DNA from: Patescibacteria group bacterium | GTDB taxonomy: Bacteria; Patescibacteriota; Microgenomatia; UBA10105; UBA927 | Assembly (NCBI GenBank): GCA_018821245.1 | Contig: JAHJMO010000017.1 | Location: 1-55,870, forward strand | Direction: 5' to 3' | DNA length: 55,870 nt | Part shown: one piece after another, positions 9,656-13,343 of the stretch | How the letters are laid out: the number at the start of each line of letters is the position of its first letter | Numbering within the stretch: position 1 is the first letter of the stretch | Made by a program: the position numbers and the translations under genes | Notes under the pieces: generated by a model | Database searches by the model: none | Told to the model about the DNA's origin: nothing | What the model saw: only the letters and a program-made list of their open reading frames with translations

Positions 9656-10645
9656 TTACGGTTTCTGCGGCCAAAATATTTTGTTAAAGAGTTTTCGTTC
9701 TTCGTTTCGTACTTTTTCAGCAAACTCGTTGTCGCTGTACTGTTGGGCTATTGTATCAAGTTTTCCCCACGACGTCGATGGCGTGAGGAAATTTCTTTTT
9801 GTTTCCCGATAGACCTGTTTGAGTTTGTCGTAGGGAACCATGACTTCACCATACACCCTGCGCTCTCTGTTTTGTTCATCTCGTTTTGTTTCGGTAAGAT
9901 ACAAACAGGGACGGTGAAAATTCAGGTATGGGTTGAACCACTGCGTATAGTAGGCGTTGATCTCGTCTGCTTTCTCCTGGTTGATGTGGACATAGCCCAT
10001 GTTCTTTCGTATGACCGATCCGTTTTTGGTTTCCACCAGTGCATTGTCATTACAATGTCGAGATCTGCTTTTCGTGTGTTTGATGAGGAGCCGATTGAGG
10101 ATTGCCTCAACTGTGTAGTTGATGAACTCTCCTCCCCGGTCGGAGTGAAAATTGAATACCACAAATGGAAACTGATCAATGAGTATTTTCAATGCCGGTT
10201 TCATACAGGATTCTGCAATCACCGGGACACAGACGACAATCTCCCATTGGGTAATCTCATCGACGGCGTTGATGTGGAAAACGTCCCTTTGGTGGACTGT
10301 ATCAATCCGAATGGCACCAGGGAGATTGTTTGGTTCCGGAGGTTTGGTGGTACCGATGGCGATCGCTCTGGGCTTGGTGCCATTGACCCAACTGTTGACA
10401 TAGACGGGATGATGTCGCAAATTGTTGATGTGGGAAATGGAGACACCGGCAATATGGTGATACTCCTGGTGACCAAATACTTCCCATTCCCGCCGAAGAA
10501 TTTCATGGGTAGCGGTGGCATTGAGCCGCAGATGGAGTTCATCTGTTTTTTCCAACAGTTTCACATCTCCACTCGTGTAGATCCGGTTGGGGTTCTCCCG
10601 ATGATATATTTTCCGTACGAGCTTCCCGAGAACCGCCCGCTTCAT
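9656..10645 (-). CDS. IS transposase, integrase core (rve, DDE) domain, IS481/IS3-like
   Basis: IRIDTVHQRDVFHINAVDEITQWE ... FNFHSDRGGEFINYTVE...HCNDNALVETKNGSVIRK: DDE integrase motifs. Confidence 0.88.
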   Translation of the reverse strand: MKRAVLGKLVRKIYHRENPNRIYTSGDVKLLEKTDELHLRLNATATHEILRREWEVFGHQEYHHIAGVSISHINNLRHHPVYVNSWVNGTKPRAIAIGTTKPPEPNNLPGAIRIDTVHQRDVFHINAVDEITQWEIVVCVPVIAESCMKPALKILIDQFPFVVFNFHSDRGGEFINYTVEAILNRLLIKHTKSRSRHCNDNALVETKNGSVIRKNMGYVHINQEKADEINAYYTQWFNPYLNFHRPCLYLTETKRDEQNRERRVYGEVMVPYDKLKQVYRETKRNFLTPSTSWGKLDTIAQQYSDNEFAEKVRNEERKLFNKIFWPQKP

Positions 10646-10861: not shown

Positions 10862-11503
10862 ATGTTCAAAAGTCTTGAAGGTGAACTACGAAGAAGGGGT
10901 GAAAATCCGTTGGCAAATATTGTCGCTTCTCTACTTAGTGTACGTGGAGAAGATATTCCCTTTAAAGAAAAAACAGGCGATGTGGTTCGCTTTTCTGCCG
11001 AGCAGCGCAAAGCGTTAGAAAAACGAGGCAGGACGGTATACGTTGAACTTCACGGAGAGACGTTGGAAACGTTAAAAGCGCAAACAGGTACGAAAAGTTA
11101 TCTGTATGGCAGGAAAGCAGAAGAAGTCGAAGCGGTTTCTGCTATGCGAGGAGTTGAAGTAGCGATTAACCTCGATCATGCAACTCCGGGAAAAACTTTT
11201 GGCAAGCCATTTAATGCACAACTGCCAATCCTTGAAACAGCAAATAAAGCGATTGAAGGGGTGACTGATACTTATCCTCAAACTCCGGCGGATGCGTTAG
11301 CCGTTGCTTTGGATGTGCAGAAGCAAACAGGAGTAAACATTTTATCAAATTATACTCGGGTAGGTAAAGCTGGCTCTATTCGTGTGGGCTTCTTGAGTCC
11401 CGGCGTCAGAGTGACGGTCGATGACGATTTCCATCCGGATGAGTCGGTTGACCACGTCGGGCTTCTTTCTCTGGCAGTGCCCGCAGCGGCACTTGGGCGT
11501 TGA
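10862..11503 (+). CDS. DGR variable (target) protein of unknown N-terminal family; the listed ORF begins at 10844, ATG 10862 preferred
   Basis: C-terminal 34 codons (GSIRVGFLSPGVRVTVDDDFHPDESVDHVGLLSL) are the VR matching the TR at 11817-11919; start chosen from promoter position. Confidence 0.85.
   Translation: MFKSLEGELRRRGENPLANIVASLLSVRGEDIPFKEKTGDVVRFSAEQRKALEKRGRTVYVELHGETLETLKAQTGTKSYLYGRKAEEVEAVSAMRGVEVAINLDHATPGKTFGKPFNAQLPILETANKAIEGVTDTYPQTPADALAVALDVQKQTGVNILSNYTRVGKAGSIRVGFLSPGVRVTVDDDFHPDESVDHVGLLSLAVPAAALGR
11372..11474 (+). repeat. DGR variable repeat (VR)
   Basis: 103-bp ungapped match to TR with 14 mismatches, 12 at TR adenines; in frame in the target gene. Confidence 0.93.
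11476..11493 (+). promoter_or_regulatory. Hairpin immediately 3' of VR (candidate DGR target-recognition hairpin)
   Basis: AGTGCC-CGCAGC-GGCACT; absent after TR (TAGTTTTTCGAGG). Confidence 0.6.
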
Positions 11504-11580
11504 TTTTTTGAATCTTTTGGATTTTCTCCTTTTGGATCTTCGCGTTTGTGTGATATCCTAGAAGTCAGAAGGCAGTGAAT

Positions 11581-11601
11581 GAATAGCGACTAGTGCTATT
11601 C
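11581..11601 (+). other. Stem-loop upstream of TR (possible TR-RNA leader element)
   Basis: GAATAGC-GACTAGT-GCTATTC. Confidence 0.35.
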
Positions 11602-11816
11602 GTCGCCTACTCACGAGCGGATACATATCGCCAGAGTTCTTGAGATTCATTGATATCTCAAAGAAGTGTGCGGTACCAACTCGAGACACTGCGGACTTTC
11701 CTCTTTGGACGTGTTTGCCTTTTCATTTCTGTTCGAGCAAACGGTCAAATACAATACAGCAGCCTGATGGTCATCGGACTGCGGTGGGAAAAGAGGACGG
11801 AGGAAAGTTTATTTGC

Positions 11817-11919
11817 GGCTCTATTATTGTGGGCAACTTGAATCCCGGCGTCAAAGTGAACGTCAATGACAATTTCCATCCGGATAAGTCGAATGACAAC
11901 GTCGGGCTTCTTTCTCTGG
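11817..11919 (+). repeat. DGR template repeat (TR)
   Basis: GGCTCTATTATTGTGGGCAACTTGAATCCCGGCGTCAAAGTGAACGTCAATGACAATTTCCATCCGGATAAGTCGAATGACAACGTCGGGCTTCTTTCTCTGG; rich in AAY codons; partner of the VR. Confidence 0.93.
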
Positions 11920-11935
11920 TAGTTTTTCGAGGTCA

Positions 11936-12355
11936 CTAGCTCATTTCGTTCTGAACTTTAGCAGCCCGTATCCAACCACCGAGCATTTTGCCGATTTCCT
12001 GAAGCATTTCTTGCAGAACAAGATAGCGTGCACTGGAAAGGGCTTGCGTGTCTTTTGCTAATCGCAGGAGAACCTTGAGTAGGTCTACTTTGACACTCAT
12101 CATTTGAAGGATGTTAAATTTTTCAGGTGAAGTTGGGACGAGAAACAGAAATTCAAGAATATCGAGAACAGTATTTTCTAATCGTGCTCCGAGACTATAT
12201 CGTTGGGTTTTCGGAAATGAGGGAAGTGTTATCGCAAGTTCACGATAAAGAGCGTATAGCTTGGTAAATATGGGAATATCCGGACCAAAGTCTACTATAG
12301 GTGTGTGTGTGTGGCTCTGACATATGAGGGCTATTTTATCATATGACGCACTCAT
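11936..12355 (-). CDS. avd: DGR accessory variability determinant (Avd-like four-helix bundle)
   Basis: DIPIFTKLYALYRELAITLPSFPKTQRYSLGARLENTVLDILEFLFLV...ARYLVLQEMLQEIGKMLGGWIRAA resembles the Avd / 23S-IVS four-helix bundle family; adjacent to DGR RT and TR. Confidence 0.85.
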   Translation of the reverse strand: MSASYDKIALICQSHTHTPIVDFGPDIPIFTKLYALYRELAITLPSFPKTQRYSLGARLENTVLDILEFLFLVPTSPEKFNILQMMSVKVDLLKVLLRLAKDTQALSSARYLVLQEMLQEIGKMLGGWIRAAKVQNEMS

Positions 12356-13343
12356 TGCTCCGGAGCAATTGTTTTTGGCTTGGGAAGAGTTTCGTTTGGG
12401 GAAAAGCGGGAAGCCCGAAGTTCAGCTGTTCGTCCGAACGTTGGAAGATAGTCTTTTTGCCTTACATACAGCGCTGAAACGACAAACATATCAACATGGC
12501 AACTATGAAGCCTTTTGGGTGAATGACCCAAAACGGCGCCATATCCACAAGGCCCCAGTCGTTGATCGTGTCGTGCACCACATTCTGTATACGTACCTCT
12601 ACGACCTCTTTGACCCCACGTTTATCCACGACTCGTATTCCTGTCGTTTGGGCAAAGGAACGCACAAAGGCGTAGAACGGTTGGTGTTTTTTACCAGAAA
12701 AGTATCACAGAACTATACTCGCACCTGCTGGGCACTGCAATTTGATATTCGTCGATTTTTTGCCAGAGCCGATCACAAAACTCTCAAACTATTATTGAGG
12801 CGTAAAATACAGGATGAGAATATATTGTGGTTACTCGATGAGGTAATCGACAGTTTTCACTCGGAGATGGGATATGGGAAGGGTATACCGCTTGGTAATC
12901 TCACGAGTCAGGTGTTTGCCAATATCTACCTTCACGAATTGGATCATTTTATGAAGCATACACTGAAAGTTCATTGGTACATTCGCTATGCAGATGACGG
13001 TGTGGTGGTGTCGTCATCGAGAACACTACTTGAGAAGTTGATTGAACCGATAGAAGATTTTTTGCACACCCGGCTTGCACTTACGTTACATCCGCGCAAA
13101 GTGACTATACGGAAACTGTCATGGGGTATAGATTTTTTGGGGTATATTGTTTTGCCACACTATATGTTGCCGAGGACAAAAACAAAAAAACGCCTCGTGC
13201 GGAGACTCAAAAAGCAAATTGAGTTAGCGTCATTTGAACAATCGTGGGCATCATATTGCGGATACCTGAGTCACTCCAGCAGTTTTCGATTGAGAGAACG
13301 ACTCAAAAATGATCTCTGGCTGATAGGAGGCATAAACGGGTAA
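12324..13343 (+). CDS. DGR reverse transcriptase
   Basis: RT motifs DIRRFFARADHKTL, GIPLGNLTSQVFANIYLHELDHFM (DGR-type GxxxSQ), YIRYADDGVVV, DFLGYIVLP. Confidence 0.93.
   Translation: MRAILSYDALIAPEQLFLAWEEFRLGKSGKPEVQLFVRTLEDSLFALHTALKRQTYQHGNYEAFWVNDPKRRHIHKAPVVDRVVHHILYTYLYDLFDPTFIHDSYSCRLGKGTHKGVERLVFFTRKVSQNYTRTCWALQFDIRRFFARADHKTLKLLLRRKIQDENILWLLDEVIDSFHSEMGYGKGIPLGNLTSQVFANIYLHELDHFMKHTLKVHWYIRYADDGVVVSSSRTLLEKLIEPIEDFLHTRLALTLHPRKVTIRKLSWGIDFLGYIVLPHYMLPRTKTKKRLVRRLKKQIELASFEQSWASYCGYLSHSSSFRLRERLKNDLWLIGGING

Follow-up and report, generated by a model that had tools for sequence, protein, structure and literature searches.

A conserved structured RNA domain 5' of the template repeat in Patescibacteria diversity-generating retroelements, with a helix predicted to span the template

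A stretch of DNA from a Patescibacteria group bacterium (contig JAHJMO010000017.1 of assembly GCA_018821245.1, analysed over its whole length of 55,870 nucleotides and called the window below) carries two copies of a 103-bp segment that differ mainly at the adenines of one copy, which raises the question of what kind of system maintains such a pair and how the copying of one repeat into the other might be controlled. To our knowledge, the start, confinement and end of cDNA synthesis in diversity-generating retroelements (DGRs) are known in detail only for BPP-1, and Patescibacteria DGRs, common as they are, have not, as far as we know, been studied at the bench.

Realigning the two copies by program (11372-11474 and 11817-11919, both on the + strand) returned the ungapped 103-bp alignment with 14 mismatches that a preliminary description of this DNA had drawn up by hand. 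Twelve of the 14 mismatches fall at adenines of the second copy, which has 25 of them (hypergeometric P = 2.3e-7), as had been claimed, and none of the 14 falls at an adenine of the first; since the bias is towards adenines of the second copy only, 11817-11919 is read as the template repeat (TR) and 11372-11474 as the variable repeat (VR). A search of the whole 1.08-Mb genome (97% complete) with the TR sequence matched these two places only. The changes of TR adenines in the VR are six A>G, three A>C and three A>T, which corrects an earlier tally of 7 G and 3 T; the ten codon changes and their residues are all as first listed. The two non-A changes, T>G (in ATT>CGT) and C>G (in AAC>ACG), do share codons with changed adenines, each lying directly 3' of one, and to the GAC, GAT and CAT codons whose adenines were said to be untouched can be added the ATT at 11378. 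That every change is nonsynonymous is correct and adds little, because this is built into the TR, in which 24 of the 25 adenines occupy codon positions 1-2 and, of the 75 A>N changes that are possible, only one is silent. Similarly, calling the divergence "clean" is justified by the 12 differences at adenines and slightly generous in view of the two others, a share above that of most relatives; in the TR/VR pairs of relatives that share the gene order, almost every mismatch lies at a TR adenine and non-A changes are few. The two non-A differences may reflect either drift of the TR or occasional misincorporation beside an adenine.

The last 20 positions of the VR (11455-11474, + strand) are free of adenine and identical to TR positions 11900-11919, and by analogy with BPP-1 this IMH-like end may act as the IMH. 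Directly 3' of the VR lies a small inverted repeat (AGTGCC..GGCACT, 11475-11493, + strand), at the place where the IMH stem-loop of BPP-1 sits, and it is kept in some relatives, not in all.

The VR forms the 3' end of an open reading frame for a 213-aa target protein (10862-11503, + strand; 10844 is an alternative start to the ATG at 10862), of a family that other Patescibacteria DGRs also have in their VR-bearing genes. This protein had no match in Pfam, NCBIfam, PHROG, PADLOC or the sequences of the PDB. A C-type lectin fold is usual, not obligatory, for the variable domain of a DGR. AF2 models of the window protein and of a relative (pLDDT 87 and 89) gave no significant match in a Foldseek search, C-type lectins being among the top matches with best E-values of 2.0 for the window protein and 0.11 for the relative. 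On the 3' side of the TR, a 139-aa Avd accessory protein is encoded on the minus strand (11936-12355; NCBIfam NF033474, 86.4 bits against a cutoff of 80; Pfam PF22296, 59 bits against a cutoff of 40; phrog_3206), divergently from a 339-aa reverse transcriptase (RT; 12324-13343, + strand) that matches PF00078 and carries the motifs LGNLTSQ and YADD. The best PDB match of the RT is 8ub7, the Bordetella DGR RT (E 7e-32), and it is 32% identical to the BPP-1 Brt over 284 aa, with LGNLTSQ aligned to IGSLTSQ of Brt and fitting the DGR motif [I/V/L]GxxxSQ. The starts of avd and the RT gene overlap divergently by 32 bp (12324-12355), a layout common to close relatives, in which the gene order is target gene, TR, avd (reversed) and RT.

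The surrounding genes form a chromosomal cell-wall cluster (FemAB-like, dgkA, mraY, glutamate-racemase-like, MurD-like ligase, ftsW and murG-like genes) in a genome of about 1.08 Mb. Just upstream of the target gene is an IS481/IS3-like transposase gene (9656-10645, minus strand) with an integrase core, scoring below family cutoffs. RT relatives at E <= 1e-20 were found in 54 of the 374 genomes of the class; scans of genome-contig and viral-contig collections with the RT returned no relatives.

An adenine-biased repeat pair, an RT of the DGR lineage, an Avd nearby, a VR ending the target ORF and an adenine-free IMH-like end thus occur together at one locus, and TR/VR, RT and Avd constitute an already known type of system, the DGR. 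The original TR/VR reading is supported by the adjoining Avd, the DGR-type RT and relatives with the same adenine pattern, and comparison with these shows the repeat pair to be a genuine TR and VR of a DGR.

Between the target gene and the TR lies a non-coding stretch of about 245 nt (11571-11815) that appears to be a conserved structured RNA, a feature that the preliminary description had missed. Its 5' half consists of a hairpin P1 (GGCAGTGA...GCC, 11571-11607) and a helix/hairpin P2-PB (11613-11683), both seen in the fold of the window and in covariation measured in relatives, where RNAalifold on a MAFFT alignment of 11 relatives gave compensatory change in 21 of 26 pairs. The core (11685-11815) was recognised by a covariance model, R1, built on six relatives with the window left out: it matches the window on the + strand at 11685-11815 with 47.8 bits (E 1.8e-7 in 589 kb) and ends 1 nt before the TR. 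Both this model and the window fold place in the core a helix PL (11693-11704/11799-11810), a hairpin PC (11708-11718/11737-11746), a single-stranded motif AAATACAATACAG (11747-11759) and a hairpin PD (11759-11762/11779-11782), all on the + strand. A plain MAFFT alignment of the six relatives, from which the window was again left out, shows both partners changed in 14 of 23 pairs, and 90% of its cells pair, as against 43-59% when the partners are slid. Across 24 aligned matches, 22 of the 23 core pairs show compensatory change in an alignment (A6) that was fitted to its structure and leans to it, whereas alignments A5 and A7 and the duplex test described below were not fitted to structure. Folding z-scores for the stretch from target gene to TR, relative to shuffled sequence, were negative in 17/17 loci, and since U-G pairs are common the RNA is assigned to the + strand. 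Three blocks of the domain are near-invariant (GACACUnC, AAUAAAAUACAG and CAGUGA). Reading AAUAAAAUACAG as a -10 box was rejected as the main interpretation, since the two strands of PL, which lie on either side of it, covary, and because that covariation spans the segment both of its flanks belong to one RNA. Taken together, the comparison between relatives shows a predicted structure that is conserved. Rfam 15 (4227 models) had no match in the window at E<=1, nor in eight relatives at the gathering score.

This domain is also predicted to pair across the template. It contains a segment, ...AGACACU, whose complement AGUnUCU... follows the TR, and in the window the two strands of this helix, P0, are CTCGAGACACT (11680-11690) and AGTTTTTCGAG (11921-11931, directly after the TR), both on the + strand. 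When duplexes of matched strands were compared with duplexes in which partners had been swapped between loci, 36 loci gave -12.3 (matched) vs -6.7 kcal/mol (swapped) and an independent set of 23 gave -9.9 vs -6.2 kcal/mol, with 0/20,000 permutations as good in either set, a test that does not fully remove the relatedness between loci. Because swapping partners controls for the conserved core of the helix, the result indicates that its variable outer pairs covary. P0 is also stronger with the flank of the TR than with that of the VR in 17/17 loci, the margin in the window being small. The window helix reaches -11.8 kcal/mol with one mismatch and one G-U pair, and the unconstrained MFE fold of 11565-11935 forms it. 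The comparison among loci therefore shows a candidate pairing of the domain across the TR.

Part of the 5' strand of P0 (11680-11683) can also pair upstream with 11613-11620, in the outer helix of P2, and the two pairings are mutually exclusive. A test of such a switch gave -6.7 for matched vs -6.1 (P about 0.01), and the idea was set aside for its weak statistical support.

Past the TR, 25 of 57 loci have an intrinsic terminator no more than 65 nt from the TR end, where 3.2 would be expected, and because of these terminators the RNA probably ends just after P0 in many loci. In the window itself, no terminator is recognisable past the TR.

How closely the 5' domain is tied to the DGR can be seen from its distribution. 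A second covariance model, R2, scanned over the 374 genomes of the class, gave 45 matches in 36 genomes, and these co-occur with the RT (P = 2e-20). Thirty-three of the matches lie <=3 kb from an RT, 31 of them upstream and on the RT strand, 30 at a distance of 445-635 nt and the remaining one 69 nt from a fragment of an RT. An adenine-biased TR was found at or near the 3' end of the element in 60 of the 64 matches tested. In the first set this held for 37 of 38 matches, the TR starting between 7 nt before and 13 nt after the element end, and in a further set for 23 of 26 loci (20 of the 26 loci being from other classes), with 21 TR starts falling from 9 nt before the element end to 7 nt past it, and two lying 21 and 26 nt beyond it. 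At the level of the phylum, an element match was obtained in 58 of 380 genomes. In the RT tree the 44 element-positive RTs all group in a single clade, to the exclusion of the 11 negative RTs, and R2 has no match in BPP-1, in three other phage DGRs or in eight loci of the class whose RTs are of another kind or partial. In two sister DGRs, L052 (G028:C25) and L152 (G368:C5), a natural rearrangement has reversed the unit of element and TR with respect to avd and RT, and because the element stays with the TR there, the RNA domain belongs to the TR. Comparison thus shows the predicted element to be linked both to the TR and to one RT clade.

Several individual loci deserve mention in their own right. 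Four of the 64 matches (L153, L183, L189 and L142) had no detectable TR/VR pair nearby; they are possibly solitary or decayed copies, or have their VR elsewhere in the genome. One genome of about 1.1 Mb (G028) holds six copies of the element (L040, L041, L043, L045, L052 and L055), each with its own TR, and its DGRs have several different target families. In a single-contig genome (G067, locus L133), element, TR and VR are kept beside an RT remnant that gives only a 31-aa match, and this DGR seems to have lost its RT. Finally, proteins of the target family occur in genomes lacking a DGR RT, namely at L060 (G011, a single-contig genome in which none was detected) and at L062 (G101), where one protein has two tandem target domains; these may be frozen former targets.

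The interpretation that we favour, and hold to be quite probable, is that of a DGR whose TR RNA has a structured 5' domain as a scaffold for RT and Avd, with P0 holding the 3' end of the TR for the start of cDNA synthesis. Here and in the Patescibacteria relatives the TR would make up the 3' part of a non-coding transcript and be copied by the RT with Avd, adenines being misread, and the cDNA would replace the VR at the 3' end of the target gene by way of the adenine-free IMH-like end, diversifying the C-terminal domain of the protein. The 5' domain (P1, P2, PL/PC/PD and the AAUAAAAUACAG segment) would most likely be the RT-Avd scaffold and might supply or position the primer; P0 would bring it to the 3' end of the TR, holding the point where cDNA synthesis starts, and PL, ending just before the TR, may mark where copying stops. 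We infer transcription, protein binding, priming, stopping and current activity from the nucleotide sequences.

One may also consider a DGR that works as BPP-1 does, where recruitment of bRT-Avd and cDNA priming are both functions of the spacer 3' of the TR, and a motif within avd, on the 5' side of the TR, stops synthesis (PMC12875486). Scaffold and primer would then lie 3' of the TR, and the 5' structure would only stop the cDNA at the 5' end of the TR, which agrees with the position of PL exactly at that edge. Since avd, on the minus strand, adjoins the 3' side of the TR, the longer TR RNA needed for this would be antisense to avd, and several relatives do have a hairpin 3' of the TR inside the antisense avd. 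A universal hairpin of this kind was ruled out, being missing in the window and in several relatives; in addition, the terminators close behind the TR in many loci leave not much space for a scaffold on that side, P0 links the 5' domain with the TR 3' end, and at the two inverted loci avd does not lie 3' of the TR at all. We therefore regard this arrangement as unlikely.

Similarly improbable in our estimate is that the DGR of the window is real and has become inactive, TR and VR having drifted since the last homing event. The share of non-A mismatches, the imperfect P0 of the window and the transposase gene just upstream would fit such a history, whereas the ORFs for RT, Avd and target protein are unbroken, with catalytic motifs present, the RNA domain is likewise intact, and 12 of the 14 differences obey the adenine rule.

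A role for the 5' element outside the retroelement RNP, as a leader or attenuator regulating the expression of TR and RT, is very unlikely by our assessment. Structured leaders are common and the element does lie between target gene and TR, but it remains with the TR where RT and Avd are inverted, P0 pairs it with sequence beyond the TR, and at nearly every locus its 3' edge and the edge of the TR are no more than about 13 nt apart. A plain duplication, or chance, would account for the existence of a repeat pair and is refuted by the adenine bias (P = 2e-7), the RT, the Avd and the many relatives with the same pattern.

We found no prior description of an RNA domain 5' of the TR in Rfam 15 or in the open-access literature, the main paper on CPR DGRs (Paul et al. 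2017, Nat Microbiol) lying outside that search; the 5' domain with P0 would thus be a previously uncatalogued variant of DGR architecture, for which a prior description is possible. With a covarying, phylum-wide RNA whose proposed layout is opposite to that of BPP-1 (scaffold 5', template 3' and a closing helix), the question of how cDNA synthesis is controlled becomes testable by mutation and compensation, and the covariance model locates TRs even where the RT is missing or inverted, as its 60/64 matches at a TR illustrate. If the proposal is true, it would provide a second, compact scaffold for programmable mutagenesis.

Compared with the BPP-1 DGR (mtd/avd/TR/brt), the window shares adenine-specific substitution from TR to VR at the 3' end of the target gene, an Avd, a related RT and an adenine-free IMH-like end. 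In BPP-1, however, avd lies 5' of the TR on the same strand and a structured spacer of about 145 nt lies 3' of the TR before brt (PMC12875486), and this same-strand order of avd, TR, spacer and RT is not that of the window DGR: here the structured RNA is 5' of the TR, avd is antisense between TR and RT, and many relatives have terminators after the TR. BPP-1, for its part, shows no P0-like excess pairing. Roux et al. 2021 described a DGR clade 2 restricted to Patescibacteria/CPR (PMC8144416), to which the window RT presumably belongs, judging from the single clade of element-positive RTs and the chromosomal neighbourhood; the main text of that paper does not mention Avd or gene orientation, and we found in it no description of a 5' RNA domain for clade 2.

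Against the model for retron St85 the RT scores 39.1 bits, far from the NCBIfam cutoff of 235. Retrons have an msr-msd RNA that primes from a branching G, with a structured 5' part, a template 3' of it and complementary segments, a1/a2, that bracket the template. The window system is like them in layout, with its structured 5' RNA, its template in the 3' part of the RNA and complementary segments around the template, among which P0 resembles a1/a2, and it is unlike them in its adenine mutagenesis, its homing into a VR and its Avd; it is retron-like in layout and is not a retron. Whether Patescibacteria DGRs as a whole follow a distinct RNP plan is a wider proposition that we see as evenly balanced: a 5' RNA domain, rather than a 3' spacer, would bind RT-Avd, and P0 would close the template loop and place the primer at the 3' end of the TR, a retron-like layout put to mutagenic retrohoming that would not have been described before.
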